Assembly: GCA_902779395.1 (NCBI GenBank)
Contig: CACZBK010000036.1
Span: 1 to 44,947, forward strand
Length of the DNA stretch: 44,947 bases
Origin: an uncultured Lachnospiraceae bacterium
GTDB lineage: Bacteria > Bacillota > Clostridia > Lachnospirales > Lachnospiraceae
Reading direction: 5' to 3'
Shown here: one piece after another, positions 25,975-43,969 of the stretch
How the letters are laid out: each line of letters starts with the position of its first letter
Position numbering within the stretch: the stretch's first letter is position 1
Notes under the pieces: generated by a model
The model's input: only the letters and a program-made list of their open reading frames with translations
Told to the model about the DNA's origin: nothing
Database searches by the model: none
Position numbers and translations under genes: made by a program

Positions 25975-26733
25975 ATGAATACTGTATTGAGAACCGAAAA
26001 ACTCTGTAAGTCGTTTTCGAATGCGGGACTGCAGCAGCATGTTATAAAGAATCTGGATCTGGAGATCTTTGAAGGCGATTTTACGGTTATCATGGGGGCG
26101 TCCGGCTCAGGCAAGAGCACATTGCTCTATGCACTTTCGGGTATGGATAAGCCGACGTTTGGCAAAGTGTATTTCGGAGAGGAGGAGATATCTTCGTACG
26201 ATAATGACAGACTGGCTGTATTTCGAAGAAACCATTGCGGTTTTGTGTTCCAGAGCATCTACCTTCTCGATAACATGGATGTATTTGATAACATCATGAC
26301 AGGAGCCCTGGCAGCGCGGAAGAATTCGCCGGAGCTTGTGGAACACATAAAAACCCTTCTTAACCAGGTAGGGATATCCGAAGATATGTGGAAAAAATAC
26401 CCGAACCAGTTATCGGGCGGTGAATGCCAGAGAGTAGGCATAGTAAGGGCGGTGATCAACGAGCCGAAGCTCCTCTTTGCGGACGAGCCTACAGGCGCCC
26501 TTAATTCATCTTCGGGACAGGATGTACTGGATGTATTTACAGAGCTTCATAAAAGCGGACAGAGTATAGTGATGGTAACGCACGACATAAAGACGGCGCT
26601 GCGCGGATCAAGGGTGATCTATCTCAGGGATGGCGGCATAGTCGGAGAGCACAGGATGCCGGATTATGGAACTGAAGAAAATAAGCAGCGCAGGGGATCA
26701 TTACAGGATTTCTTAAACGAGATGGGATGGTAG
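25975..26733 (+). CDS. ABC transporter ATPase, MacB/LolD type
   Basis: The protein of 252 residues has Walker A GASGSGKST (residues 41-49), the Q-loop in FVFQSIYLLDNMDVFDNIM, signature LSGGECQRV (about 143-151), Walker B LLFADEPTGALNS and switch His in MVTHD. It is the stand-alone ATPase that partners with FtsX-type permeases. The next gene, 3 bases on, encodes that permease. These systems either move lipids, peptides or toxins, or transmit mechanical signals across the membrane. Upstream lie four phased TAAGA repeats. Confidence 0.92.
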   Translation: MNTVLRTEKLCKSFSNAGLQQHVIKNLDLEIFEGDFTVIMGASGSGKSTLLYALSGMDKPTFGKVYFGEEEISSYDNDRLAVFRRNHCGFVFQSIYLLDNMDVFDNIMTGALAARKNSPELVEHIKTLLNQVGISEDMWKKYPNQLSGGECQRVGIVRAVINEPKLLFADEPTGALNSSSGQDVLDVFTELHKSGQSIVMVTHDIKTALRGSRVIYLRDGGIVGEHRMPDYGTEENKQRRGSLQDFLNEMGW

Positions 26734-26736
26734 GTT

Positions 26737-29241
26737 ATGAAAAAGATCTTAAGATTATCATTTGCAAATATAAAAAAGCATAAAAAAGAGTCGGTCCTTT
26801 TTTTGATCCTTATCACGCTGGGAATGGTGCTGCTTTCTGCAGCGGTATCAGCGGTAACGGGGATCGGAAAGATCACACCCCGGATGGTGGAGGAAAGCGG
26901 ATGCTATAAAAATCTTGTATCTATCAGGCAGGCTCATTACTCAGACCGCTATCTTGAATTTCTTGAGGATAATCCGGATGTAGAAAGTTTTGATCATACC
27001 AGTTTCGTTTCGGATATGATCAAAGTAAGGACTAAGGATGAGGGCGACATTCTGGCAGATATCAGCTTTGTTCCGCTTAGCGGTGAATGCAGGATGGAAA
27101 GCTTTGAGCCTGATCCTGAGTTTAGGACTGCGGCTCATCCTATAGTGCTTGCATCCGCCAACAGAGATAAATTTGAGCTTTCCGAAGGAGATGATTTCAC
27201 GATCATCTGGGATAATAAAGAATTCACATTCACTGTTACAGGATTTTACGAAACGGGGATCTGGAATTATGGGACCAAAGCGGTGATAAACGAGGTCGAT
27301 TTTGCCTATCTGGAAAATGTTATGGATGACCGCTTTGAGATGATAGGCATAAATACCGCTGCCGGAGCTGATGAGCAAAGTGTGCTTTCCGGTTTTAAAG
27401 CCTTCGCGGAAGAAGCTTCAATAAACGATCTCTCAGGTTCATGGTATTCGTCTGCTTATGAAGAAACGATTGCAAACAATAATATAAATATGTCGATACT
27501 TAGCATCATTACAATGATAATGTCGGCAGTGATAGTGATCGCTATCATGATAATGATCAGATTCCGCATTGTTAGCGATATTCAGGAACAGATCGTATCG
27601 ATCGGTGTATTGGAAGCGATAGGATACACATCGGGACAGATCGCTGCTTCATACATTGCGGAGTATGTACTGATCGCTCTTGCCGGCGCATTGATCGGAG
27701 CGGCTCCTGCAATGATAATGGCAAAAGGACTACTTAAGAATGCAGCTTCAAGTGTATACTATGGCGGACCGCTTACGGTTCCGGCTGCTCCGGTATTCAT
27801 CTGTACAATGGCGGTAATTGCCTTTGTCGGGATCACGGCGTTAAGCAGAGCATGCACGGTCAAAAAGTATCCTCCTGTAATGGCTTTCAGGAAGGGGATC
27901 GAAACACACAGTTTCAAAAAGAACATCCTGCCGCTGGCTAAGACAAAAGGCAATGTTCATATCCGCCTTGCCATAAAAGCGCTTTTCCAAAATGCAGGAA
28001 ATCATCTGGGATTAACGGTATGTATAATGGCCTGTACGGTATTAGCGCTGACAGGCTTTATACTGGGGACTTTCTTTGCAAGTCCGGAAAGGATCCTGAG
28101 CTCAGTATGCGGACATGAACTCTGTGATATAAGGATAGAAGCGCTCGGGGATATCGAGCCGGAGGCTTTTGCGGCAGAGCTTAAGGGAATGCCCGGAGTA
28201 AGGCAGGTCCTGACGCCTGCAGTGGGAATCGGAGTGAAAGCAGTAAACGGTAATGACGGGATGGATAAGGATATCCCGCTTATTGCGGAGGTCTATGAAG
28301 ATTATTCTGAGACTTCAACGATAATACTTACTAAAGGAAGATTTCCGGAACACGAAAACGAGCTGTGTGTAACAGTCCAGTCGCTTAAGATGATCATCGG
28401 CGCCCAAATGGGTGATACCATTACTCTTGAGTACGGAAAAGTAAAGAAAGACTATGTCATAACAGGTATAGTCAATTCTGTGGTCAATCCCAATACGGTC
28501 TACATCACAAAAGAAGGATTTAAGCGTATGAATCCTGCATATACGCCGCCGGCTTTCGATATTTATCTGAATGAAGGCACAGACAGTAAGGAATTTGCTG
28601 AGCTGCTGAGAGAACGTTACGGAAAAGAGATAGCAGATTATAAGGATGATGAGATAACGGGAGATACTCTTGAAGAAAAGATCAGGGCTGCTGCAGATAA
28701 AAAGATGGCTGAGGCCATGACGAAACAGGGAGTCAGCTATATGGAGTATGCCATCAGTGTGGGTGATAAGATCATTACGGGCAGCACTTCACTTATGAAG
28801 ATCAAAACCCTGACATTTGAAAGAGAGGATATCGAAGAAGTGGCTGATATGCTCCTTGTATCTTTTGCAGGAATTGCAGTTATCATGATGGCTGTATCAG
28901 CGATAGTCGTAAGCCTGATCCTGTCGATCCTGATGGCTTCTACGATCAGGAGACAGTATAAAGAACTGGGGATAATGAAAGGTTTGGGTTATACATCAAG
29001 GGAACTTAAGTTTCAGCTGGCGTTTCGCATAGTACCGGTAGCGGTATTGGCAGTTATCCTTGGAACTGTGCTTTCAATCCTGCTTATAGGAGTTGTCAAC
29101 GCATTTGTTTGCAAAGTAATAGTTTCGGCTTCTTCCATAGCATTGATGGATATTGTCGTACTTATATACTGCTTTATCTGCGCATACATCAGCGCAAGAA
29201 GGATAAAAAAGATATCGGTATATGAACTGATCTCTGAATAA
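26737..29241 (+). CDS. ABC transporter permease with two FtsX domains
   Basis: The protein has 834 residues. One membrane segment lies near residues 18-38 and is followed by an extracytoplasmic domain (40-245). Three segments follow in the first FtsX domain (about 247-370). A further segment (about 425-447) leads to a second extracytoplasmic domain (450-690), then the second FtsX domain (about 705-830). That is a duplicated MacB-like arrangement of about eight segments, not the ten-segment BceB layout. It pairs with the ATPase encoded immediately upstream. The export or signalling substrate cannot be told; linkage to a serine hydrolase and a two-component system suggests the cell envelope. 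Confidence 0.88.
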   Translation: MKKILRLSFANIKKHKKESVLFLILITLGMVLLSAAVSAVTGIGKITPRMVEESGCYKNLVSIRQAHYSDRYLEFLEDNPDVESFDHTSFVSDMIKVRTKDEGDILADISFVPLSGECRMESFEPDPEFRTAAHPIVLASANRDKFELSEGDDFTIIWDNKEFTFTVTGFYETGIWNYGTKAVINEVDFAYLENVMDDRFEMIGINTAAGADEQSVLSGFKAFAEEASINDLSGSWYSSAYEETIANNNINMSILSIITMIMSAVIVIAIMIMIRFRIVSDIQEQIVSIGVLEAIGYTSGQIAASYIAEYVLIALAGALIGAAPAMIMAKGLLKNAASSVYYGGPLTVPAAPVFICTMAVIAFVGITALSRACTVKKYPPVMAFRKGIETHSFKKNILPLAKTKGNVHIRLAIKALFQNAGNHLGLTVCIMACTVLALTGFILGTFFASPERILSSVCGHELCDIRIEALGDIEPEAFAAELKGMPGVRQVLTPAVGIGVKAVNGNDGMDKDIPLIAEVYEDYSETSTIILTKGRFPEHENELCVTVQSLKMIIGAQMGDTITLEYGKVKKDYVITGIVNSVVNPNTVYITKEGFKRMNPAYTPPAFDIYLNEGTDSKEFAELLRERYGKEIADYKDDEITGDTLEEKIRAAADKKMAEAMTKQGVSYMEYAISVGDKIITGSTSLMKIKTLTFEREDIEEVADMLLVSFAGIAVIMMAVSAIVVSLILSILMASTIRRQYKELGIMKGLGYTSRELKFQLAFRIVPVAVLAVILGTVLSILLIGVVNAFVCKVIVSASSIALMDIVVLIYCFICAYISARRIKKISVYELISE

Positions 29242-29280
29242 GCTGTTTTGTAATATTAAGCAAAGATACCGGAGGAGAAG

Positions 29281-31191
29281 ATGAAAAAGAAGATAAAAAA
29301 GATCTATGCAGGAATAATGATCGGGCTGGCATTAACCGCCTCAGCCGGGGCTTTGGCAGTGAAAGCCGAAGAACCGTCTGATAACAGCAAAGATGCAGAA
29401 AAGCATTCGGATTCATGTACTGCTGTTTTAAATATTGCCTCTGTAAGCAAGATGTATGTCACCACAGCGGTAATGCAGCTGGTGGACAGCGGAAAGGTTG
29501 AACTTGACAGACCGGTTGCAGATTACATTACGGATTTTAGAATGGCGGACGAACGATACAAGGATATCACGGTACGCATGCTGATGAACCATACTTCGGG
29601 ACTGATGGGATCGACCTATGCCGGGGCTCTTCTCTTTGATGAAATAAGCATGGATTACCATGATACGTTTTTACAGAAGCTGAAAAGGCAGCTGTTGAAA
29701 GCAGATCCGGGCGAGTTCAATTGCTACTGCAACGACGGCTTTACTCTGCTCGAGATACTTGTGGAGCGTGTAAGCGGATCGAGCTTTACGGAATATCTGA
29801 AAGAAAACATAAGCATGCCGCTGAGTCTGGAACATACGGGAACTCTGTGGGACGTGGACCCCAACGGGCAGGTTCCCGTATATATAAATGGCAATGTAAA
29901 GCTGGCTAATGCAGTTCCGCAGCTGATAGGCGCAGGAGGCATTTTGTCTGATGCAGAGGATGTATGCAGGTTTGGGACAGCGTTTTTTACAGGAGATAAT
30001 ACCTTGCTGTCCGAAGATGCCAAGCTCGAAATGGCAGAGAACAACAGTGTGGACGGCTGTCTGCCGGCCTTTGGTCTGGGCTGGGATAACGTGGAAAAGG
30101 AAGAATATGAAAAAGCCGGCGTAAAGCTGCTTTCAAAGGGCGGGGATGCCCTGCATCATTCAAATCTGCTGATAGCGCCGGATGAGAAGATCAGCGTGGC
30201 GGTGCTTTCTTCCGGCGGATCCAGTACCAATTGTGAGGAGATATGTTTAGAGCTTATGGATGTGGCGCTCTCAGAACAGGGGATCGACATAGTGCATCCG
30301 GAAAAAGAAAAGCCTGAACTTATCATGGTGCCGGATGAGTACATGAAATATGAAGGTTTGTATGCAAATACGGAAAAGACCATGTATATAAGCTTTCCGG
30401 ATAAACGCTACATGCAGGTACGTTCCGTTACTTCCGAAAATGAGTTTGTACTGCAGTATATGTATACCGCAGACGGCACATTCGTGGAGATGAGCGGAGA
30501 TGTAAGCTCCGGAAATGCCATTCCGGCTCAGCCGCTGCAGGCATATATGTTTGAAGAAAAGAACGGGCAGGTATATCTTTCACATCCTGAAATGGGCTAC
30601 ATGCTGGTAAAGGTAAAGGAAAAAAAGGTGGAGGAAAGCGTGCAGAAGGCATGGAATGAGCGTAACGGCTTATACTACTATCTGGTGAGCGGTTCGTATT
30701 CAGATACCGCCTATACCGACAACAACCGGATGAAATTGTGTACGAGCGATCGGGCTCCGGGCATGGTAAATGGATACCGGATGCAGGATGAAGACCATGC
30801 AGGATATGATCAGATCATGCCCGGCAGCGCCTCAAGGGATATCAGTGATCTGCGCATGGAGAGGATAGACGGGAAAGAATATGCCTGTTTTGATGATCTG
30901 GGATTCAGAATGATATCGGAAAAAGATATTCCCGTATTCACGGATAAAGTGACGACGGTAGAGCTTATATCCGGTGAAGCAAGCTGGTTTAAGATAGATG
31001 GGGCAAAGGATGTAACACTAAGGCTTGACATACCGGAAAATGCATCGGTGTATGTATATGATAAATATATGAATATAAAGTATTCTTCTTATATGACCGG
31101 ATATGGAAACAGGGTTCCTCTGCCGGAGTACGGGATGATCGTCTTTGCCGGCAAGACGGGTCAGAGCGTTGCAGTAAGCACGACAAAGTAA
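29281..31191 (+). CDS. Secreted beta-lactamase-fold serine hydrolase (class C/PBP-like)
   Basis: The protein has 636 residues. Residues 1-29 form a signal peptide (KKKIKKIYAGIMIGLALTAS, then AGALAVKAEE). Ser 54-Lys 57 is the SxxK nucleophile motif (ASVSKMYVTTAVMQL), YCN at 149-151 is the YxN motif, and KGGDALHHSN near 285 may correspond to the third motif. The C-terminal 280 residues form a separate domain. In this family 50 to 80 residues of beta strands normally precede SxxK; here only about 25 follow the signal peptide, so the front strands are shortened. It would act outside the membrane on peptidoglycan peptides or an antibiotic. It is 39 bases downstream of the permease gene. Confidence 0.82.
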   Translation: MKKKIKKIYAGIMIGLALTASAGALAVKAEEPSDNSKDAEKHSDSCTAVLNIASVSKMYVTTAVMQLVDSGKVELDRPVADYITDFRMADERYKDITVRMLMNHTSGLMGSTYAGALLFDEISMDYHDTFLQKLKRQLLKADPGEFNCYCNDGFTLLEILVERVSGSSFTEYLKENISMPLSLEHTGTLWDVDPNGQVPVYINGNVKLANAVPQLIGAGGILSDAEDVCRFGTAFFTGDNTLLSEDAKLEMAENNSVDGCLPAFGLGWDNVEKEEYEKAGVKLLSKGGDALHHSNLLIAPDEKISVAVLSSGGSSTNCEEICLELMDVALSEQGIDIVHPEKEKPELIMVPDEYMKYEGLYANTEKTMYISFPDKRYMQVRSVTSENEFVLQYMYTADGTFVEMSGDVSSGNAIPAQPLQAYMFEEKNGQVYLSHPEMGYMLVKVKEKKVEESVQKAWNERNGLYYYLVSGSYSDTAYTDNNRMKLCTSDRAPGMVNGYRMQDEDHAGYDQIMPGSASRDISDLRMERIDGKEYACFDDLGFRMISEKDIPVFTDKVTTVELISGEASWFKIDGAKDVTLRLDIPENASVYVYDKYMNIKYSSYMTGYGNRVPLPEYGMIVFAGKTGQSVAVSTTK

Positions 31192-31208
31192 ATATATATG
31201 GTTAAAAG

Positions 31209-31242
31209 GCCGCAGAAATGGTATAATATCTGTGGCTTTTTT
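31209..31242 (+). terminator. Terminator hairpin with a TATAAT in its loop
   Basis: GCCGCAG (31209-31215) pairs with CTGTGGC (31230-31236), with one G-T pair, and is followed by six Ts. It closes the ABC-hydrolase transcript. The loop contains TATAAT (31222-31227), and the regulator gene starts 34 bases later, so this may double as its promoter; no good -35 box is visible. Confidence 0.65.
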
Positions 31243-31260
31243 GATGCACAGGAGGACAGC

Positions 31261-31992
31261 ATGGACGTAAAATGCCTGATCGTAGATGATGATATTACGA
31301 TCGCTGAAAATACAGCAGAATACTTTAATATTTTTGACATATCCACCGCATTCGTCACAAGCTATGATGATGCAGTCAGGTTCCTGGAGGAAAACGAAAC
31401 CTCTCTGGTGCTTCTGGATATCAATCTGGGTGAGAGGTCGGGCTTTGAACTGTGTAAGAAGATCCGCCGGGAATTTGATATGCCGATCCTGTTCATCAGC
31501 GCGAGAAAGAGTGATGATGATATCCTTACTGCTTTAAATATCGGCGGCGATGATTATATAAGCAAGCCTTTTACCATGAGCATTCTTCTTGCAAAGGTTA
31601 AGGCGGTCCTTCAGCGATATGAAAAAGCCGTGAGCATGGCAAAGGCTGCGGAGAATACGCCGGTACAGGCTGATAATACCTCCGTCAGATCAGAGGCTGC
31701 AATATATATAGCCGAGAATATATTTCTTGATACTTCTACACACAAGCTGGTAAAGAACGGCGAAGAGACAGAACTCAAAGTCAGGGAGTATAACATGCTC
31801 CTCTACATCCTGAAAAACAGGGGAAGAGTCGTTACAAAAGATGAACTGCTTAAATGTGCCTGGGAGGATGAATTTATCGGAGAAGGCACACTGCCGGTTC
31901 ATGCCAGGCGTATACGCATGAAGCTTGAAGACGACCCGGACGATCCGAAGATACTCAAGACTATCTGGGGCGTTGGATATATTATTGAATGA
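31261..31992 (+). CDS. OmpR/PhoB-type response regulator
   Basis: The 243-residue protein has a receiver domain (VDDD at residues 8-11, phospho-acceptor Asp 53 in LLDINLG, Lys near 105 in DYISKPFTM) and a C-terminal winged helix (residues 145-243: LKVREYNMLLYILKNRGRVV, TKDELLKCAWEDEFIGEGTL, PVHARRIRMKLEDDPDDPKI, LKTIWGVGYIIE). ATG 31261 follows GGAGG by 5 bases; the earlier open frame from 31198 runs over the terminator and is rejected. It overlaps the kinase gene by 4 bases. A likely target is the TAAGA repeat array at 25875-25912, upstream of the ABC genes. Confidence 0.93.
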   Translation: MDVKCLIVDDDITIAENTAEYFNIFDISTAFVTSYDDAVRFLEENETSLVLLDINLGERSGFELCKKIRREFDMPILFISARKSDDDILTALNIGGDDYISKPFTMSILLAKVKAVLQRYEKAVSMAKAAENTPVQADNTSVRSEAAIYIAENIFLDTSTHKLVKNGEETELKVREYNMLLYILKNRGRVVTKDELLKCAWEDEFIGEGTLPVHARRIRMKLEDDPDDPKILKTIWGVGYIIE

Positions 31993-33266
31993 TGAAGGGC
32001 ATTCGAAAGTTCTTTTTGTATTTCACTATATTGCTTGTTATTTCAGTCGCGCTTCTTTTTTTGGCTGCGGGATCGTTTCATCATGCCACAGTAGACGGTA
32101 TAAAACTTAATGATATAGTTCAGACCGCAAAGGAAAACTGGGACGATCTGAGCATTCTGGATAAAAAAGCCTTTGATACAGATCTGATGATCCTTGACAG
32201 CAATGATCAAAGGCTGTATGTAAAGCCGGAGAAGACATTCGCGGATGTGAACGGAGTGCTGGATGCCATTAAAGCGGGCATGATCACAGCGCCTGTAAAT
32301 GAAGGCAGTCTGTATATGGGGACGGTGGTCGTACCGGATCCGGCGATGGCGGCTTACCGCAATACAGTACGTGATATCGCTGTGCTCACGGCGCTTATCA
32401 TAGCGCTGCAGCTGATATCGTATCTTGTTTTTCTGCATTTTATTAATCGAAGCATAGCTGCGCCTTTTAAACGCATGAAGGAATTTGCAGCGCTTGTGGC
32501 GCAGGGAAGACTGGATGAGCCGCTGGTGATGGACAGGAATAATATCTTCGGGGCTTTCACGGAATCCTTTGATATCATGCGGGAGGAGCTCAAAGCATCA
32601 AAGCAGCGGGAAACGGAGCTTAAGATGAAGGAGAAAGAGCTGATAGCATCTTTAAGCCATGATCTTAAAACTCCGGTTACCGGGATAAGGGCTATCTGCG
32701 GCGTACTGTCGGTAAAGCTTCAGGATGAGTATCTGAAGGCAAAGGTAGATAATATCGAGCAGAAAACGCTGGAAATAAGCACACTTTTAAATGACCTTCT
32801 TTCTTCGACCCTGGATGATCTGGGGGAGATGAATGTAAGCACTACGGAAGAAACATCTGATATCCTGAAGACTATAGTAGATGAACATGACGTTCATAAC
32901 AGGGTAAGAGCAGAGCTTATACCGGAATGCATTCTGAGGATGGATAAAAACCGCATGTCTCAGATCATTGGAAACATCATCAGCAATTCATATAAATATG
33001 CGGATACGGATATCGAAATAAGCTACGCCTTCAGCGGGGATTTTCTTGAGATGAGGATAAGGGATCACGGAGAAGGCGTAGATCCGGAAGAGATAGGCTT
33101 CCTTACAAATAAGTATTACCGCGGCAAGAAAAACAGCCCCGGTAAAGAAGGCAGCGGATTAGGGCTTTATATATCTGCCGAGCTTATGAAGAAAATGAAC
33201 GGCCAGCTTATATGTATAAGTGATGGTAACGGGTTTGAAATAAGGCTTATGATACCTCTGGCGTAA
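31989..33266 (+). CDS. Membrane sensor histidine kinase
   Basis: The protein of 425 residues has membrane segments near residues 7-27 and 130-152 flanking a small extracytoplasmic domain of about 100 residues. A HAMP-like linker (NRSIAAPFKRMKEFAALVAQ) leads to HisKA (IASLSHDLKTPVTGIR, His near 224) and an ATPase domain (NIISNSYKYADTDIEISYAF, DHGEGVD, GSGLGLYISAEL). It pairs with the response regulator upstream, overlapping by 4 bases. Its extracytoplasmic sensor part may detect the ABC transporter or its substrate, as in Bce-like modules, but it lacks the very short loop of true Bce kinases. Confidence 0.92.
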   Translation: MMKGIRKFFLYFTILLVISVALLFLAAGSFHHATVDGIKLNDIVQTAKENWDDLSILDKKAFDTDLMILDSNDQRLYVKPEKTFADVNGVLDAIKAGMITAPVNEGSLYMGTVVVPDPAMAAYRNTVRDIAVLTALIIALQLISYLVFLHFINRSIAAPFKRMKEFAALVAQGRLDEPLVMDRNNIFGAFTESFDIMREELKASKQRETELKMKEKELIASLSHDLKTPVTGIRAICGVLSVKLQDEYLKAKVDNIEQKTLEISTLLNDLLSSTLDDLGEMNVSTTEETSDILKTIVDEHDVHNRVRAELIPECILRMDKNRMSQIIGNIISNSYKYADTDIEISYAFSGDFLEMRIRDHGEGVDPEEIGFLTNKYYRGKKNSPGKEGSGLGLYISAELMKKMNGQLICISDGNGFEIRLMIPLA

Positions 33267-36448: not shown

Positions 36449-37294
36449 TCATTTGCCGTACATGGAAGGTGATATATGATAATAGCTTTTGAATGCGTGG
36501 GTGAAGTGCTCCGGGGAAGAGTAGCCAAGCTCGTAAGCAACTGAGGCGATGCTTTTGCCGGTATCCTGCAGCAGAATGCAGGCGGCAGACATGCGGGCCT
36601 CTTTTTTCTTTTGCAGAAAAGTTTTGCTGTAATGCTGCTGCAACAGACGCTCTGTCTGGCGGCGGCTGAGGTTTAAAAGCTTTGCAAGGCTGTCGAGGGT
36701 AATGTCACGGTAATTATACAAAAAGGCCTCTTCGATTATAAGATAGGTCTGGTCATCAGGTGAGTGTACAGGCGGGATATTTTCGCTTATGGCACCGTCT
36801 GCCGTAGTCATATAGAGTCTTGATACCATAACGATCAGTTCTTCAAGAAGAGCCGAAAGCATTAGCCGGTGTCCGTCCGGGTTCTGTTCGAGTTCGTTTA
36901 TAAGTTTTTTCATCAGATCGTAAAATTCAATACCTGCTGTACCGTAATAGAAAGACTGTTGAAGAAAACGCTGCAAAAGTCTGCTTTTTGTACCGTTACG
37001 CGGAAGCTTTACTTTCAGGTAAACACCGTATTCGCGCATCGGGTCATCCGGGTCGGGGATCTGTTCGTGCATGACCTGTGGACCGGTCATAAAGAAAGTG
37101 CCCGGAGTAATTTTATATGCCGTGTCATCAGCAATAAGCATCCCGCATCCATATGAGATGTAATGTAGTTCATAACTGTTGCGACTGTGGCTGTGCTTGG
37201 GGATAGGTACGTTCATCTGCTCGTTGCTTATGCTCAGGACATTGAAGGCCACGTCATCCATTGTGAAGCTCAGGCTCAGGTTACGATATTTCAT
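36449..37294 (-). CDS. AraC-family transcriptional regulator, likely controller of the sugar-acid operon
   Basis: The 281-residue protein has an N-terminal cupin-like sugar-binding domain (HSHSRNSYELHYISYGCGML, ITPGTFFMTGPQVMHEQIPD) and a C-terminal double helix-turn-helix (DITLDSLAKLLNLSRRQTER then SIASVAYELGYSSPEHFTHA, FKSYYHISPSMYGK). It is divergent from the six-gene dehydrogenase operon with a 230-base intergenic region carrying palindromes and repeats. AraC-type regulators next to sugar pathway genes normally activate them when the sugar binds. The effector is inferred to be the operon's substrate, for example an L-sugar or its acid. Confidence 0.9.
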   Translation of the reverse strand: MKYRNLSLSFTMDDVAFNVLSISNEQMNVPIPKHSHSRNSYELHYISYGCGMLIADDTAYKITPGTFFMTGPQVMHEQIPDPDDPMREYGVYLKVKLPRNGTKSRLLQRFLQQSFYYGTAGIEFYDLMKKLINELEQNPDGHRLMLSALLEELIVMVSRLYMTTADGAISENIPPVHSPDDQTYLIIEEAFLYNYRDITLDSLAKLLNLSRRQTERLLQQHYSKTFLQKKKEARMSAACILLQDTGKSIASVAYELGYSSPEHFTHAFKSYYHISPSMYGK

Positions 37295-37336
37295 AAAAAC
37301 GACCTTTCCGGATCATACTTGTAAATAAGTAACTAA

Positions 37337-37410
37337 ATTATAGTATATGTTATCTTTTGACAGGCTTAACTGTCAAGAGGCACCTGCGAAAATGCGACAT
37401 ATAATGTCAA
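37337..37410. promoter_or_regulatory. Divergent AraC/operon control region
   Basis: On the minus strand a TATAAT box lies at 37342-37337 for the AraC gene. A palindrome TTGACAG (37357-37363) / CTGTCAA (37370-37376) lies where its -35 box would be. On the plus strand TATAAT at 37400-37405 sits within GACAT-ATA-ATGTC (37396-37408), serving the operon, with no -35 box at 17 bases. TGTCAA recurs at 37371 and 37405, 34 bases apart (about three helix turns). This fits AraC-dependent activation. A leader of about 110 bases precedes the first gene. Confidence 0.55.
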
Positions 37411-37524
37411 AAATCGGCACGTACTCCACTGTGATTAATTGAGTTTGAAGAGTAAAATGCAGAATAGAGGTACGGATATTAAACATTAATACATATTTTT
37501 ATGTCGGAAAAGAGGTACAGGTGA

Positions 37525-38739
37525 ATGATAGTTAAGGGAACGTATTTTCAGAATGATCCCGATAATCCGTTGGTATACGGTGATGTGGAGATCGAAAATG
37601 TCAGGCGCAGGAGACTGCGCGGGGAAGAGGAAAAAGAGGGAGTGCTCTGCGAACCGGTAATGGTCGGATTCTGCGGCACGGATAATGAACTGATGAACAT
37701 GGGAAGCAAGGGGCTTTTAGGACCCAAATTCCCGAAAGGGCGTAAGCGTCTTATAAACGGACATGAGGGTATCGTCTGGGTCCCTTCGGAAAAACGCTTT
37801 GCCATCGTGCTTATCCGTGGCGGTGACAGCTGGGATCCTACGCGCTATACCGAAGATGAAACGTATTTTGAATATGGCTGTGACGGTGCAGACGGCTTAT
37901 TCTGTGACAAACAGTATTTTAATCCGGATATGCTTCTGCGTATACCCGACGGTTATGTAAAAGACGGAAAGCTTGATCTTTCATTTGCAAAAAAAATGGT
38001 ATTTCCGGATCCTTTTGCGTGCATGCTTTTCCAGCTTGAGAGGATGGAGGATCTGGGAAGTGCACATAATTTCCGCAGGACCATGAAAAGGCTGGGCTGT
38101 TCAGAGCAGGAGGCGCGCGATGCTGCAAAGGAAGAGATCTTTGAGCGCACCGTTATCTTCGGGCTTGGGACAACGGGCATGTTCATCGGTGATCTGATAC
38201 TTAAGGCCCACAAAAACGCAAATGTTCTTTTCGTGGCCAGGAGCAGTGCGGATTCACCCAAGGTAAGCTTTGCCCTGCGACAGACAAATGCGCAGTATCT
38301 TCAGAATACTTTTGATAATGAAGAAGATCTTGCAAAAGCTATCGTGCAGCGTATGGGCGGACGCGCAACACTGTTTATAGGTGTCAGCGGAAGCAATTCA
38401 GAGCACAGGATAGCATTTGAGCAAAAGGTGCTGGGCTGCAACGGTATCTACAACAGCTTTTCATTGGGGCCCAATATCTCATTTGATACGATGCCTTTCG
38501 GCTTTGAGAATCATCTGATATTCGGATCGATAAATTTCAGGCAGGATCATATGGAGAAGGCTATAGAGCTTCTTGCAAAGAGCAGCTATGATGAGATAGT
38601 TGAATTGATAGACCGTGACGAATTCACAAAAGATCCCATAGGAGCTTATAAAAACCGTATATATTCCAAAGGCGCACCGATGAAAACAGCTGTGGTATGG
38701 AATCCGGAGTATGTGGATATGCAGTCCGCAAGAACCTGA
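37525..38739 (+). CDS. MDR-family dehydrogenase, glucose-dehydrogenase-like; candidate L-galactose/aldose 1-dehydrogenase
   Basis: The 404-residue zinc-containing medium-chain dehydrogenase has catalytic zinc ligands in GFCGTDNE (Cys near 50) and INGHEGIVWV (His, Glu near 79-80), and a Rossmann motif FGLGTTGMFIGDL (about 213-225). The GCDGADGLFCDKQYFNPDML segment and the closing region resemble archaeal-type glucose dehydrogenases that oxidise aldoses at C1 to lactones, using NAD(P). It is gene 1 of the operon. I infer that it oxidises an L-aldose (L-galactose best) to the 1,5-lactone; a mutarotase and a putative lactonase in the same operon support an aldose-1-dehydrogenase role. It could instead oxidise another sugar. 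Confidence 0.75.
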   Translation: MIVKGTYFQNDPDNPLVYGDVEIENVRRRRLRGEEEKEGVLCEPVMVGFCGTDNELMNMGSKGLLGPKFPKGRKRLINGHEGIVWVPSEKRFAIVLIRGGDSWDPTRYTEDETYFEYGCDGADGLFCDKQYFNPDMLLRIPDGYVKDGKLDLSFAKKMVFPDPFACMLFQLERMEDLGSAHNFRRTMKRLGCSEQEARDAAKEEIFERTVIFGLGTTGMFIGDLILKAHKNANVLFVARSSADSPKVSFALRQTNAQYLQNTFDNEEDLAKAIVQRMGGRATLFIGVSGSNSEHRIAFEQKVLGCNGIYNSFSLGPNISFDTMPFGFENHLIFGSINFRQDHMEKAIELLAKSSYDEIVELIDRDEFTKDPIGAYKNRIYSKGAPMKTAVVWNPEYVDMQSART

Positions 38740-38803
38740 CGGATAGGTTTTAACAGAAAATTCACGGAGTTGTACAGATCAAGAAGAACGGAGAGATAAA
38801 AAT

Positions 38804-39826
38804 ATGAAAACAGTAATGATCGATGAACCTTTTAAAATACATGTGGGCGAAACAGATATGCCCAAGCCCGGGGAAGGAGAGGCGCTTCTTAAGGTAATGT
38901 ACGGCGGGATATGCGGCGCTGATGTGGCCAGTTACATAGGCAATCAGCCTTTTACCACTTATCCCAGGATCCCGGGACATGAGTTCAGTGCACAGATCGT
39001 ATCTGTGCCCGAAAACGACAGAGGCCTTAAAGCGGGAGATATAGTGACAGCCAATCCATATTTTAATTGCGGGGAGTGCTATTCCTGCCGGAGAGGATTT
39101 GTCAATTGCTGCACAGACAACCAGACTATGGGTGTGCAGAGGGACGGAGCGTTTCGTGAATATATAGTGATGCCGCTTGAGAGGATATATGACGGTAAAG
39201 GACTTTCGGCAAAAGAACTTGCACTGGTTGAGCCGTTTACCATAAGTTATCATGCTCTTCACCGTGCGAAGGTTAAACCGGGTGATAATGTGCTGGTAGT
39301 CGGTGCCGGCCCGATCGGACTGTTCGCGCTGATCGCGGCTAAAGCGCAGGGGGCTAAAGTGTATTCGGCTGATATCCTGCCCGGAAGACTTGAAAAGGCA
39401 CTTCACTTTGGTGCCGATGGCGTGATAAACTCGAAGGAGAAAGATATACGCGAAGAGGCTATGCGCATTACCGGAGGCAACGGCTTTGATGTATGCGTAG
39501 AAGCCTGCGGACAGTCGGTGACATTTTTATCATGTATAGACTGTGCGGCATTCGCAGCCAATATAATCCTGATCGGAAACGGTAAGAAGGAGACAACATT
39601 TCTTCATTCTGTCCTGCTTAAGAAGGAGCTCAATGTATTCGGAAGCCGCAATTCCTATCCTCAGGATTTCCGTGCGGTGATAGATCTTATCGCATCCGGA
39701 AAGGTCAATGTACTGGATATGGTAAGCGATATATATCCGATAGAGCGTGCGGATGAGGCGTTTAAGGCTCTGGCAGACAATGACGGCAGTCTGGCTAAAG
39801 TACTTATCAATATCGGTGATAAATAA
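38804..39826 (+). CDS. Zinc alcohol dehydrogenase, candidate L-galactonate 5-dehydrogenase
   Basis: The 340-residue protein has the standard layout: catalytic zinc GGICGADV (Cys near 38) and PGHEFSA (His/Glu near 59-60), structural zinc cysteines NCGECYSCRRGFVNCC, an NAD-binding VVGAGPIGLFALIAAKAQGA, and Asp at the strand end (SADILPGRL) favouring NAD over NADP. It belongs to the sorbitol/threonine-dehydrogenase-like group, near YjjN/LgoD, which oxidises L-galactonate to D-tagaturonate. That reaction feeds exactly the substrate of the next gene (UxaB). The role is inferred mainly from this context. Confidence 0.75.
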   Translation: MKTVMIDEPFKIHVGETDMPKPGEGEALLKVMYGGICGADVASYIGNQPFTTYPRIPGHEFSAQIVSVPENDRGLKAGDIVTANPYFNCGECYSCRRGFVNCCTDNQTMGVQRDGAFREYIVMPLERIYDGKGLSAKELALVEPFTISYHALHRAKVKPGDNVLVVGAGPIGLFALIAAKAQGAKVYSADILPGRLEKALHFGADGVINSKEKDIREEAMRITGGNGFDVCVEACGQSVTFLSCIDCAAFAANIILIGNGKKETTFLHSVLLKKELNVFGSRNSYPQDFRAVIDLIASGKVNVLDMVSDIYPIERADEAFKALADNDGSLAKVLINIGDK

Positions 39827-39892
39827 AAAGTAAAACGGCAGATCCTGCCGCACATCTGCGGAGGATACAAACAAAAAAGGGCGGTGAATGAT

Positions 39893-41233
39893 ATGGCAAT
39901 AACGGAATACAAAGAGAGGATCATACAGTTCGGAGAAGGCGGTTTCCTTCGCAGTTTCGTGGATGTTTTTATACATAAGATGAACGAGCAGGGCATCTAC
40001 GACGGGAAAGCCGTTGTGGTACAGCCTATCGCAAAGGGACTGATACCGGTGATAAATGAGCAGAATGGTGTATATCACCAGTTCCTGCGCGGTATAGATG
40101 AAGGCAGGGTTATAGATGAGTGTATTGAAGTACATTCCATATCACGCGGTGTGGATCCCTATACCGATTATGATGAATACTTAAAACTGGCCCGGGATCC
40201 CGATATGCAGATCATTATATCGAATACTACAGAGGCAGGTATCGAGTATCTTGGAACGGAGAAGATCACGGATGCTCCGCCAAAGTCCTTCCCTGCAAAA
40301 CTCACGGCTCTTTTGTATGAACGTTATAAGGCCGGGCTGGGTGGCTTTGCCATACTTTCGTGTGAGCTGATAGACAATAACGGAAAAGAGCTTTTAGCGT
40401 GCGTGCTTAAGTATGCAAAACTCTGGGAGCTGCCGGAAGGATTCAGCAAGTGGGTAGAGACGGAAAATGACTTCTGCAATACGCTGGTGGACCGCATCTG
40501 TACGGGATATCCAAAGGATGAAGTCGAGTCACTTACAGAGCGTCTCGGATGCAGTGATAAACTGATGAATACTGCCGAGATCTTTCATTTGTGGGTTATC
40601 GAGGGAAATCATGAGGATATCTTCCCACTTAAGAAAGCAGGCATAAATGTCATCTGGACCGATGATGTCAAGCCGTATAAAAAAAGAAAGGTACGCATCT
40701 TAAACGGCGGGCATACATCGATGGTGCTGGCAGCACGGCTGTACGGACTCTCCACCGTTAAAGAATGTCTGGATGATCCGCTGGTAAGCCGTTTTTTGAA
40801 CAAGGCGGTCTTTGAAGAGATCATTCCCACGCTGGGACATGAAGAGGAAGATATTCCTTTCGGAAATGCGGTTTTGGAGCGTTTTGCAAATCCTTTTGTA
40901 AAGCATCAGCTCCTTAGCATAGCGCTTAACTCCGTAAGCAAGTTTAAAGCGAGAGTACTGCCTACAATACTTGAGTACTATGAGCAGAGAGGAAAACTGC
41001 CTGAGTGTCTTACTTTTTCTCTTTCCGCACTCATTGCATTTTACCGTACCGATGAGAGTAATGACGGCGAGGAGATAATGGCATATATGAAGAGTGCAAC
41101 GGTGCGTGAGATACTTGCAAAGCAGGAATACTGGGGACAGGATCTTACGTTTATGGCAGATAAGGTTGAGCATTATTACGATATCATGCAGGGTAAGGGA
41201 ATGGCTGCAGCCTTTGAAGAGGTATTGGCATGA
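39893..41233 (+). CDS. uxaB: Tagaturonate reductase (altronate oxidoreductase)
   Basis: The protein of about 446 residues is a mannitol-dehydrogenase-family enzyme: IIQFGEGGFLRSFVDVFIHK near the start is the dinucleotide-binding turn, then NTTEAGIEY near 110, and KKRKVRILNGGHTSMVLAAR near 265, where the conserved Lys-N-x-x-H-type catalytic residues lie. It fits UxaB, which reduces D-tagaturonate to D-altronate with NADH. ATG 39893 is spaced 6 bases from GGCGGTG; GTG 39884 is an alternative. It overlaps uxaA by 4 bases (ATGA). No uronate isomerase (UxaC) is in the window, so tagaturonate must come from another source here. Confidence 0.88.
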   Translation: MAITEYKERIIQFGEGGFLRSFVDVFIHKMNEQGIYDGKAVVVQPIAKGLIPVINEQNGVYHQFLRGIDEGRVIDECIEVHSISRGVDPYTDYDEYLKLARDPDMQIIISNTTEAGIEYLGTEKITDAPPKSFPAKLTALLYERYKAGLGGFAILSCELIDNNGKELLACVLKYAKLWELPEGFSKWVETENDFCNTLVDRICTGYPKDEVESLTERLGCSDKLMNTAEIFHLWVIEGNHEDIFPLKKAGINVIWTDDVKPYKKRKVRILNGGHTSMVLAARLYGLSTVKECLDDPLVSRFLNKAVFEEIIPTLGHEEEDIPFGNAVLERFANPFVKHQLLSIALNSVSKFKARVLPTILEYYEQRGKLPECLTFSLSALIAFYRTDESNDGEEIMAYMKSATVREILAKQEYWGQDLTFMADKVEHYYDIMQGKGMAAAFEEVLA

Positions 41234-42621
41234 GTTTATTAAAGATACATCCTTCTGATAATGTGGGGGTGGATACAAATACCGGGCATAAGAGCGCTTT
41301 AAGTGACATCCGTAAAGGTGAGGATATCATTAAATACGGCTTCCCTATAGGACATGCTACGGCTGATATTCAAAAAGGAGAACATGTACACACACATAAT
41401 ATGGCCACAAATCTTAGCGGCAAGCTTGATTATAAGTACGAACCGGATGCAGTTCTGCAAATAGACGGAGCCGGTGCAGAATTACAGGGACGTACTGTCA
41501 TGGCGTATGAGAGGGCGGATGGAAATATCGGTATCCGCAATGATATATGGATCATCAATACTGTTGGCTGTGTGAACAAGACAGCTGAAGAGCTTTCCCG
41601 GCGCAGCGGTGCATTCTGCTTTACCCATCCTTACGGCTGCTCGCAGCTTGGCGGGGATCATGAGACTACACAGAAGATATTGCGGGGACTGGTAAGGCAT
41701 CCCAATGCCGGAGGAGTTCTGGTACTGGGGCTGGGATGTGAGAATAATAATATTGATGAATTTAAGAAAGTCCTTGGAACTGTTGACGAAGATCGGGTAA
41801 AGTTTCTGAATGCCCAGTCTTTTGAGGATGAGATAGAAGAGGGGATAAGGCTGATCACGGAGCTTAAACAAACAGCTTCCGCCGATAAGAGGGTGAGAGT
41901 ACCCGTATCAAGACTGAGAGTGGGTTTAAAGTGCGGAGGCTCCGACGGCTTTTCGGGAATAACTGCCAATCCTTTGATCGGCATGTTCTCCGACTGGCTG
42001 TGCGAACAGGGCGGGAGCACTGTCCTGACGGAAGTGCCGGAGATGTTCGGCGCAGAGCAGATACTTATGAACCGCTGCACAGACGCTGCGGTGTTTGATA
42101 AGACCGTAAAGCTTATCAATGACTTTAAGGATTATTACACCAGACACGATCAGGTCATCTATGAGAATCCTTCACCGGGCAACAAGGCCGGAGGGATCAC
42201 TACGCTTGAGGAGAAGTCACTTGGATGTACGCAAAAGGGCGGGACTTCGCCGGTGGTCGATGTGCTGACATACGGGGATACGGTCAGAAAGAACGGCTTA
42301 AACCTTTTAAACGGGCCCGGTAATGATATGGTGGCAGTGACAAATCTGACAGCTGCAGGATGTCATATGATACTGTTTTCGACCGGACGGGGTACACCGC
42401 TGGGTGCACCGGTACCTACTGTTAAGGTTGGGACTAACTGCGATATCAGCAAAAGAAAGGCAAACTGGATAGATTTTGATGCGGGGCCGATGATAGATGG
42501 CATGGATCTGCGAAAAGATTTTATTGAGTACTGCCTTGAGGTGGCGGAAGGAAAGGAAACCGAAAATGAGCGTAACGCATACCGCGAGATCGCGATCTTT
42601 AAGGATGGAGTAACATTATGA
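41230..42621 (+). CDS. uxaA: Altronate dehydratase
   Basis: The 463-residue protein has an N-terminal SAF-like domain (residues 1-90, LKIHPSDNVGVDTNT... KGEHVHTHNMATNLSG) and the large UxaA catalytic domain (GNIGIRNDIWIINTVGCVNK, HPYGCSQLGGDHETT, GLGCENNNIDEFKK, GLKCGGSDGFSGITANPLIG, FSTGRGTPLGAPVPTVKVGT). The cysteines in PYGCSQLG, GLGCENN and LKCGGSD are the probable iron ligands. It dehydrates D-altronate to 2-keto-3-deoxy-D-gluconate. Somewhat shorter than E. coli UxaA (about 495) but all core motifs are present. It is coupled to uxaB and to the amidohydrolase gene by ATGA overlaps. Confidence 0.92.
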   Translation: MSLLKIHPSDNVGVDTNTGHKSALSDIRKGEDIIKYGFPIGHATADIQKGEHVHTHNMATNLSGKLDYKYEPDAVLQIDGAGAELQGRTVMAYERADGNIGIRNDIWIINTVGCVNKTAEELSRRSGAFCFTHPYGCSQLGGDHETTQKILRGLVRHPNAGGVLVLGLGCENNNIDEFKKVLGTVDEDRVKFLNAQSFEDEIEEGIRLITELKQTASADKRVRVPVSRLRVGLKCGGSDGFSGITANPLIGMFSDWLCEQGGSTVLTEVPEMFGAEQILMNRCTDAAVFDKTVKLINDFKDYYTRHDQVIYENPSPGNKAGGITTLEEKSLGCTQKGGTSPVVDVLTYGDTVRKNGLNLLNGPGNDMVAVTNLTAAGCHMILFSTGRGTPLGAPVPTVKVGTNCDISKRKANWIDFDAGPMIDGMDLRKDFIEYCLEVAEGKETENERNAYREIAIFKDGVTL

Positions 42622-43502
42622 GTGAGAGGATCATCATCGATGCACATGTTCATCTGTGGGAGAAGCAAAACGGGCGTGCCGGCGGGAAGCCTGTATATGG
42701 CGTGGGAAACGGTATAGCGGATTTTGCGGGTGTGCGCAGGCAGATGATGCCGCCGTATATGGAGGACAACAGGAATACTCCGGAGCGGCTTATCGCAAAC
42801 ATGGATTACGCGCGGGTTAATATGTGTGTGGTGACACAGGAGTATATTGACGGAAATCAGGATGGATATCTTCTTCAGGTACGCAAAAGCTATCCCGACA
42901 GATTCCGTATCTGTTCACTTTATGAAGAGCGTGATGATTTCGCCATAGATGGATTTGACGGTGTAAAGATCTGTGCAGGGAGGCTTGAGGACAGTGATCT
43001 TAAGAAGCTTCTTCCCGTGTTTAAACGTATAGAGGCATCAGGTAAATTTGTCGGACTTGATCTGGCAGACGGAGATGCACAGACGGATGATATGCAGTAT
43101 ATCATAGATGCCTGTCCCGATCTGCGCGTTACTATAGGGCACTTCGGAATGGTAACAACCAGGGGATGGCAGAAACAGATAGCTCTTGCATGTAATAAAA
43201 ATGTATATATTGAAAGCGGCGGACTTACCTGGCTGTTTCATCATGAATTCTATCCATATCCTTCTGCGATCGATGCGGTAATAGAGGCACGGGATATCTG
43301 TGGTATGGATAAGCTGATGTGGGGGAGCGATTATCCGCGCACGATGACGGATCTGACCTATCGTTCGGCACTGCGCTTTATCGAGGAGAGTCCTAAGCTT
43401 TCGGAGGCGGAAAAGGATGCTTTTCTTGGCGGGAATGCGGTGCGTTTTTACGGACCGGAAGGACTTAAACCGCTGCCGGAAATAGCAAATATGCTGGATT
43501 AA
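42618..43502 (+). CDS. Amidohydrolase-superfamily protein, candidate sugar lactonase
   Basis: The 294-residue TIM-barrel protein has HVH metal ligands (DAHVHLWE, His 10 and 12), a middle His in TIGHFGM, and the final Asp in WGSDYPR. This matches the COG2159/COG3618 group, which contains decarboxylases and lactonases such as L-fuconolactonase and L-rhamnono-lactonase. It has no similarity visible to uronate isomerase. Its place between a C1 dehydrogenase and an acid dehydrogenase suggests hydrolysis of the sugar lactone (for example L-galactono-1,5-lactone) to the open acid. The gene overlaps uxaA by 4 bases and lies 20 bases before fucU. Confidence 0.78.
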   Translation: MSERIIIDAHVHLWEKQNGRAGGKPVYGVGNGIADFAGVRRQMMPPYMEDNRNTPERLIANMDYARVNMCVVTQEYIDGNQDGYLLQVRKSYPDRFRICSLYEERDDFAIDGFDGVKICAGRLEDSDLKKLLPVFKRIEASGKFVGLDLADGDAQTDDMQYIIDACPDLRVTIGHFGMVTTRGWQKQIALACNKNVYIESGGLTWLFHHEFYPYPSAIDAVIEARDICGMDKLMWGSDYPRTMTDLTYRSALRFIEESPKLSEAEKDAFLGGNAVRFYGPEGLKPLPEIANMLD

Positions 43503-43522
43503 AAAAATCGAAGGAGTAAAAC

Positions 43523-43969
43523 ATGTTAAAAGGAATTTCACCAATACTGTCACCTGAGCTGCTTAAGGTGCTGTGCGAGATGGGACACAGCGATACGATA
43601 GTGATCGCTGACGGAAACTTCCCTGCAGAAACGATGGGTAAGGATGCTATCGTGATACGTATGGATGGACACGGAGTACCTGAGATCTTAGAGGCGATCC
43701 TAAAGGTGTTTCCGCTGGATCAGTATGTGGATAAGCCGGTCTGCCTGATGGAGAAGGTACCGGGAGATCCTGCTGATGTATCCATATGGAAAACATATGA
43801 AGAGATGATCGCAAAGGAGGAATCACGTGGCATTTCGGTCATCGGCACACTGGAACGTTTTGAGTTTTATGAGCATGCCAGAAAGGCTTATGCAATTGTT
43901 GCAACGTCTGAAACCAGCCAGTATGCGAATATTCTGCTGCAGAAAGGCTGTGTGCTTGAAGACATATGA
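43523..43969 (+). CDS. fucU: FucU/RbsD-family sugar mutarotase
   Basis: The 148-residue protein matches FucU: LKGISPILSPELLKVLCEMG, GHSDTIVIADGNFPAETM (the conserved His and Asp), and the C-terminal SQYANILLQKGCVLED with conserved Tyr and Asn. RbsD/FucU enzymes interconvert the alpha and beta anomers of L-fucose, and act on related pyranoses such as L-galactose, which is 6-hydroxy-L-fucose. It would present the right anomer to the sugar dehydrogenase of gene 1. AAGGAG lies 8 bases upstream. It is the last gene of the operon; no clear terminator follows. Confidence 0.9.
   Translation: MLKGISPILSPELLKVLCEMGHSDTIVIADGNFPAETMGKDAIVIRMDGHGVPEILEAILKVFPLDQYVDKPVCLMEKVPGDPADVSIWKTYEEMIAKEESRGISVIGTLERFEFYEHARKAYAIVATSETSQYANILLQKGCVLEDI

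Follow-up and report, generated by a model that had tools for sequence, protein, structure and literature searches.

We analysed a 44,947-nucleotide contig (CACZBK010000036.1, assembly GCA_902779395.1; the window) from an uncultured Lachnospiraceae bacterium, in which an AraC-family regulator gene and six codirectional genes, all of them open frames by the ORF listing and the sequence, span positions 36449–43969. The six genes encode two zinc-dependent dehydrogenases of the medium-chain dehydrogenase/reductase (MDR) superfamily, here called DH1 and DH2, followed by UxaB, UxaA, an amidohydrolase (AH) and a FucU-type mutarotase, and we consider it probable that they form an inducible oxidative pathway for L-galactose. 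In this pathway, FucU would balance the anomers of L-galactose, DH1 would oxidise the sugar at C1 to L-galactono-1,5-lactone, AH would hydrolyse the lactone to L-galactonate, and DH2 would oxidise L-galactonate at C5 to D-tagaturonate. UxaB would then reduce D-tagaturonate at C5 with the opposite stereochemistry to give D-altronate, which UxaA would dehydrate to 2-keto-3-deoxygluconate (KDG), and KdgK and KdgA, encoded together with UxaC on another contig (C31), would finish the conversion of KDG to pyruvate and glyceraldehyde-3-phosphate. The case for L-galactose rests above all on chemistry. DH2 and UxaB would invert C5, and KDG must carry O6 for KdgK, which favours L-galactose over L-fucose, a sugar without O6. 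The initial annotation of this DNA had proposed the same route, which is still the best fit to the families, folds and gene neighbourhood, while its exclusion of galacturonate failed at genome scale and its suggested sugar sources found no support. What we computed are the gene families and folds, the conservation of the gene set and of the operator, and the presence of the downstream genes, all described below; the substrates, the cofactors and the inducer of the operon are all predicted.

Enzymes of the predicted pathway

DH1, the putative entry enzyme, matched the Pfam family of glucose-dehydrogenase-like MDRs (PF16912) weakly, with 20.8 bits and thus below the cut-off of 34.9, and no NCBIfam family was found for it. 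A phmmer search of the PDB with DH1 returned a single chain, glucose dehydrogenase 2b5w (9e-4), and a profile built from 35 DH1 sequences found three glucose dehydrogenase chains. The AlphaFold2 model of DH1 (mean pLDDT, the predicted local distance difference test, 83; residues 99–119 below 50) matched four glucose dehydrogenases best among the PDB folds (2b5w, 3wid, 2b5v and 2cdb), with TM-scores of 0.61–0.63 (on the query), identities of only 16–19% and other MDRs close behind. Residues C50, H80, E81 and D162 are invariant across the 35 sequences, and C50 aligns with the CGTD segment of 2b5w and H80-E81 with its GHE segment; because 2b5w is the D38C mutant, the wild-type enzyme has Asp at this position. 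Given the glucose-dehydrogenase folds and these aligned, invariant residues, a role for DH1 as a lactone-forming aldose 1-dehydrogenase is well supported by the modelling, the identity of the aldose being a prediction. DH1 would thus resemble the MDR glucose 1-dehydrogenases in fold and in C1 oxidation to a lactone, but apart from its low identity to them it differs in that their four-cysteine structural zinc motif was not seen in it by eye. An Arg-Ser pair after the second strand (R239-S240) suggests NADP as the cofactor. L-galactose dehydrogenases of the LguA/BVU_0219/GALDH type have an aldo-keto reductase fold, and DH1, an MDR according to both Pfam and the model fold, hence falls outside that group.

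The model of AH (mean pLDDT 93) was closest in the PDB to 6uvz (Bifidobacterium infantis amidohydrolase 2), then to 4do7/4dlf (Burkholderia amidohydrolase cog3618), the latter of which (4dlf) we take to be an L-fucono-1,5-lactonase, and 2-pyrone-4,6-dicarboxylate hydrolases were also among the closest folds. H10, H12, K117, H175 and D238 of AH are invariant in 32 sequences. DH2 is more similar to E. coli LgoD, annotated as an L-galactonate oxidoreductase (35.4% identity over 336 amino acids), than to RspB (31.3%), these being the two E. coli enzymes compared, and D190 points to NAD as its cofactor. UxaB is the only protein of the operon to exceed an NCBIfam cut-off, namely that of tagaturonate reductase (NF002969; 545.9 versus 359 bits). 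UxaA exceeded the Pfam cut-offs for GD_AH_C and GD_AH_second, which mark a family shared with galactarate dehydratase, and among the NCBIfam models that for altronate dehydratase was not matched. The top PDB match of the mutarotase is the FucU structure 3mvk (4.2e-60). Overall, the Pfam and NCBIfam families bear out the initial description of an AraC-led operon of six close or overlapping genes (Table 1), with overlaps of 4 bases both between UxaB and UxaA and between UxaA and AH; the true start of UxaB may be the ATG at 39893.

KDG kinase and aldolase were correctly said to be missing from the window, and genes for both are present on C31: kdgA scored above its cut-off, while the adjoining PfkB-family kinase gene is most like KDG kinases and below every cut-off. 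The UxaA of the window is the sole PF20629 protein, and the UxaB of the operon the sole tagaturonate-reductase-type UxaB, found in this genome, which is 97% complete, so that absences hold for the available sequence.

Table 1. Coordinates of the operon, its regulator gene and the putative control elements in the window
Feature	Position	Strand	Remarks
AraC-family regulator	36449..37294	-	Divergent from the operon; Pfam HTH_18 1.4e-19, AraC_binding 2.8e-11
Operator half-site CTGCGAAAATGCGACAT	37384..37400	+	Putative binding site of the AraC protein; conserved in AraC-DH1 intergenic regions
Second, weaker half-site TGTCAAAAATCGGCAC	37405..37420	+	In the same orientation 20 bases further along, giving a direct repeat; putative role
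-35/-10-like pair TGTGAT-17-TAAAAT	37430..37458	+	Weak putative promoter after the operator; read by eye
DH1, zinc MDR aldose 1-dehydrogenase	37525..38739	+	Predicted NADP-dependent L-galactose 1-dehydrogenase
DH2, zinc MDR	38804..39826	+	Predicted NAD-dependent L-galactonate 5-dehydrogenase, LgoD-like; Pfam ADH_N, ADH_zinc_N
UxaB, D-tagaturonate reductase (altronate oxidoreductase)	39884..41233	+	NCBIfam; Pfam mannitol dehydrogenase family
UxaA, D-altronate/galactarate dehydratase family	41230..42621	+	Predicted altronate dehydratase; Pfam GD_AH_C 1.7e-98, GD_AH_second, SAF
AH, COG3618-like amidohydrolase	42618..43502	+	Predicted L-galactono-1,5-lactonase; Pfam Amidohydro_2
FucU-type sugar mutarotase	43523..43969	+	Pfam RbsD_FucU 8.5e-44

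Conservation of the gene set and of the operator

The initial annotation had proposed a search for the gene neighbourhood in other genomes, and the grouping indeed proved to be conserved. A scan of 84,980 species genomes yielded 302 related DH1 stretches, and the best (closest) 80 of these, together with four from host-family genomes, gave 84 loci, which were located via DH1 alone and searched for partner genes by tblastn; two of them share a contig with another (L022 with L013, L080 with L014), leaving 82 distinct loci, and some are cut by contig ends. DH1 is uncommon, being present in 5 of 299 host-family genomes, our own counted. DH2 was found at 75 of the 84 loci (73 of the 82 distinct ones), AH at 69 (67), FucU at 58 (56), UxaB at 43 (42), UxaA at 41 (40) and an AraC homologue at 33 (31), the last, where found, lying upstream of DH1 on the opposite strand. 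The usual core is thus DH1-DH2-AH-FucU, with UxaBA as a detachable module that is placed mid-operon, at the end (Treponema loci L055 and L071), divergently (L015), or is absent. Lachnospiraceae bacterium YSD2013 (L065), whose record does not mark it as a metagenome-assembled genome, carries AraC, DH1, DH2, AH and FucU. For 30 of the 43 loci without UxaA we looked for UxaA (PF20629, which also includes galactarate dehydratases) throughout the genome, and found such a gene elsewhere in 26 of the 30, as would be expected if the front end of the pathway delivers tagaturonate. Among host-family genomes the corresponding figure is 113 of 299, or 109 of 294 after removal of the DH1 carriers (Fisher 1.7e-7 for 26/30 versus 109/294, kinship uncorrected); since related genomes are not independent, the Fisher values given here and below overstate certainty.

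Two Treponema metagenome-assembled genomes (L055, L071) carry the order AraC-DH1-DH2-AH-FucU-UxaB-UxaA, with 14 and 16 of 17 operator identities, respectively, which suggests either transfer between phyla or contamination of the assembled genomes. At five other loci (L081, L086, L088, L091, L094) tblastn did not find DH2, and a gene for an iron-containing, glycerol-1-phosphate-dehydrogenase-like protein lies near DH1 (PF13685 in L086, by similarity in the others), possibly substituting for the second oxidation.

Upstream of DH1 we compared 28 AraC-DH1 intergenic regions, the window included, or 25 once the window and two duplicate contigs were dropped. At least 13 of the 17 positions of CTGCGAAAATGCGACAT were identical in 23 of these 25 regions, versus 0.4% of shuffles, the consensus having been derived from words that these regions share and the single-base shuffles preserving base content only; the exceptions were L014 (12 of 17) and L070 (10 of 17). 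In the column profile a second block, aaAA...GtCAt, recurs about 20 bases past the first and is conserved in outline. The divergent AraC protein probably acts as an activator of the operon, with the direct repeat in front of DH1 as its operator; a direct repeat about two helical turns before the promoter would fit an activator of the AraC type. The TGTGAT-17-TAAAAT pair was absent from the output of the consensus promoter scan, and the matches in the consensus promoter and terminator scans were no more than expected by chance. Our genome contains a single operator site within 2 mismatches, in front of DH1, and a regulon extending beyond the operon was accordingly rejected.

Sugar sources and alternative substrates

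L-galactose is a minor plant-wall sugar that occurs on corn glucuronoarabinoxylan side chains (PMC7176698). The same source proposes GH31, GH95, GH43/GH51 and GH10/GH120 enzymes (GH, glycoside hydrolase family) for xylan of corn fibre that carries L-galactose and alpha-xylose, and PMC4491172 describes BACOVA_03438 as a GH95 enzyme releasing L-galactose. Beside the operons of relatives, we found GH31 at L087 (between DH2 and AH) and L084 (both Pfam) and, by similarity, at L023, L055, L081, L090, L092 and L095; GH29, the alpha-L-fucosidase family, at L039, inside the operon, and L082 (both Pfam) and at L089 (similarity); GH95 beside DH1 at L051 (Pfam), L046 and L054 (similarity); a GH51-like gene at L084; and GH120 at L055 (Pfam) and L014 (similarity; the contig shared with L080). 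GH2 (L092, L052, L024, L031), GH127 (L043, L024, L031) and GH94 (L025, L032, L050) are uninformative on L-galactose. The GH31, GH29, GH95, GH51-like and GH120 genes, among others, point to the side chains of hemicellulose, and less to agar, as the source of the sugar; the initial annotation had named rhamnogalacturonan II and agar, for which there was no support, several of the relatives' glycosidases being ones for hemicellulose side chains. The four best PDB matches of the L087 GH31 protein are alpha-xylosidases, and as the solved alpha-xylosidases nearest to it are presumably xyloglucan enzymes, xyloglucan would fit equally well.

The frequency of GH95, a family that includes an alpha-L-galactosidase (PMC4491172), in DH1 genomes speaks for L-galactose, although GH95 does not separate L-galactose from L-fucose. 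GH95, the sole glycosidase compared, was sought in the first 50 of 78 distinct named-genome DH1 loci, these 50 being the closest carriers and including other clades, and was present in 47 of them versus 77 of 294 genomes without DH1 (81 of 299 with carriers) from one reference family, that of the host (Fisher 1.4e-20, kinship uncorrected). Our own genome has one GH95 gene (C3:144041-146272), which lacks a hydrophobic start and is closest in the PDB to 7kmq, 8zbv, 2rdy and 4ufc, the first of which we take to be the Xanthomonas L-fucosidase XacAfc95. The last, 4ufc, is the B. ovatus alpha-L-galactosidase (PMC8245568). Whether a GH95 enzyme has Thr or His was considered as a possible proof of L-galactose. 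The Thr type was found in our own gene and in 17 of the 18 motif-containing genes among 20 others chosen by hand from DH1 genomes; the motif was not matched in the remaining two. This criterion was dropped, because 20 of 20 background genes, sampled from the upper score list, were also of the Thr type and a Thr-type enzyme specific for L-fucose has been reported (PMC8245568). GH95 may thus release L-fucose.

The make-up of the GH95 comparison and the Thr-type background both weigh against L-galactose, and so do several other results. The GH95 genes at L046, L051 and L054 have the fucosidase-type His; no assayed member of the DH1 family was found; and neither a transporter nor a glycosidase is encoded in the operon of the window. 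Moreover, AH reached only 31.8 of 400 bits against the NCBIfam model for L-fucono-1,5-lactonase (NF052480), FucU scored slightly under the cut-off for L-fucose mutarotase (NF011949; 134.6 versus 141 bits), and the top NCBIfam score of DH2, 221.6 of the 450 bits required, was for scyllo-inosose 3-dehydrogenase (IolM, NF041097).

L-fucose is the main rival and a live one: the operon could serve L-fucose, or L-fucose as well as L-galactose, with DH1 acting on L-fucose, AH on L-fuconolactone and UxaB/UxaA on 6-deoxy analogues, which we judge unlikely. Known L-fucose dehydrogenases accept some L-galactose (PMC6946681, PMC6336799), and the FucU-type mutarotase, the GH29 genes inside or beside the operons and the His-type GH95 genes would all suit L-fucose, as would the fact that fuconolactonase is the only curated NCBIfam model to match the AH relatives (27 of 32, far below the cut-off). 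However, the 6-deoxy analogue of KDG would offer no O6 to KdgK and could not enter the route through 2-keto-3-deoxy-6-phosphogluconate (KDPG), and the operon contains no aldolase for deoxyfuconate. We know of no role for the C5 inversion with L-fucose in a KDPG route, whereas E. coli and Luteolibacter metabolise L-galactonate through it, and the presence of UxaA at 41 of the 84 loci likewise argues against L-fucose.

Galacturonate has to be considered as well. The initial annotation noted that there is no uronate isomerase, which holds for the six genes and for the window; for the genome it does not, UxaC being encoded at C31:6786-8207, where kdgK, kdgA and a LacI gene precede it. The conclusion that the operon is not fed from galacturonate thus fails at genome scale: since UxaA and a UxaB of the tagaturonate-reductase type were found nowhere but in the operon, galacturonate could use them, and the two sugars may share UxaBA in this genome. 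That the operon is mainly a galacturonate operon, in which UxaC makes tagaturonate for UxaB/UxaA and DH1, DH2, AH and FucU are a side input, nevertheless seems to us highly improbable. The DH1-DH2-AH-FucU core occurs without UxaBA at many loci and is therefore not specific to galacturonate, and UxaC can be accounted for by glucuronate use, because C3 carries a separate pair in which a second mannitol-dehydrogenase-family gene (UxuB, most like fructuronate reductase) adjoins UxuA. Nor does any second operator site within 2 mismatches exist in the genome, and hence none near UxaC, so that the operator sequence gives no sign of a uronate isomerase in the same regulon, the finding that the initial annotation had named as speaking against L-galactose. 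Close to the uxuA-uxuB pair lies a GH120 gene (C3:86171-88174; L008:13171-15174), hinting at the use of xylan-derived glucuronate.

Tagaturonate and altronate are also intermediates of the Thermotoga IolG-IolM-IolN-IolO inositol pathway, and the IolM match of DH2 raises the possibility of a pathway of this kind. We give it hardly any weight, since the DH2 score is less than half of the cut-off, IolG, IolN and IolO families were unmatched among the six genes in Pfam and NCBIfam, and that pathway has no step for a lactonase or a sugar mutarotase.

Relation to known L-galactose pathways

The L-galactose pathway itself is already known, from Bacteroides vulgatus and Luteolibacter and, starting at L-galactonate, from E. 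coli. The Bacteroides vulgatus pathway of Hobbs 2014 reportedly also includes a COG3618 lactonase, and Watanabe and colleagues are said to have described altronate dehydratases in L-galactose pathways in 2019. E. coli lgoTRD plus uxaAB resembles our operon in that LgoD, which shares 35% identity with DH2 across the length of DH2, is followed by UxaB and UxaA. The lgo locus includes a galactonate transporter, however, and starts at the acid; our operon, to which no transporter is linked, is predicted to start from the free sugar. In Bacteroides vulgatus, BVU_0219 and BVU_0222 are likewise an L-galactose dehydrogenase followed by an L-galactonate dehydrogenase (as cited in PMC12632266), but the first enzyme is non-homologous to DH1, and in our case FucU and UxaBA share one AraC-linked operon.

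Another close parallel is the L-glucose/L-galactose pathway of Luteolibacter sp. LG18 (lguABCDEF), for which PMC12632266 reports proof of the same steps, a kcat/Km of LguA for L-galactose 40-fold that for L-glucose, and no activity on L-fucose. Its intermediates from L-galactose to KDG match those predicted here, as do an NADP-linked first and an NAD-linked second dehydrogenase; it also has an activator gene in front in the opposite orientation, and an rbsD-annotated gene adjoins lguG. It differs in belonging to the Verrucomicrobiota, and the words lactonase and mutarotase are absent from the main text of that paper. An Acidovorax enzyme is mentioned as unpublished data (PMC6336799).

As far as could be seen, four features are new: the host group, the detachable cassette, the conserved operator and a first enzyme that belongs to another superfamily. 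Literature searches, which left most subscription papers uncovered, found no publication on how Clostridia break down L-galactose. The chances seem to us about even that DH1 stands for an L-galactose 1-dehydrogenase family of its own, arisen from glucose-dehydrogenase zinc MDRs independently of the aldo-keto reductases, and that DH1, DH2, the lactonase and FucU are a mobile 'L-galactose to tagaturonate' cassette of rumen and gut Clostridia and Treponema, serving L-galactose from plant hemicellulose side chains and using any host UxaBA. Bacillota sequences sit in the LguA cluster (PMC12632266), so that an LguA-type enzyme may also occur in this phylum, which counts against exclusivity. If our reading is true, rumen and gut Bacillota use L-galactose by a distinct route with a new enzyme family, which could be employed in L-galactose assays and corn-fibre fermentation and as a genomic marker for the route.

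Elsewhere in the window, a single open frame at 12437-13861 combines two domains, one like peptidase S51 and the other a methyltransferase, and genes for an ATP-binding cassette (ABC) ATPase, an FtsX permease, a beta-lactamase-family protein and a response regulator/histidine kinase pair lie in a row at 25975-33266, possibly a peptide-sensing and export module.

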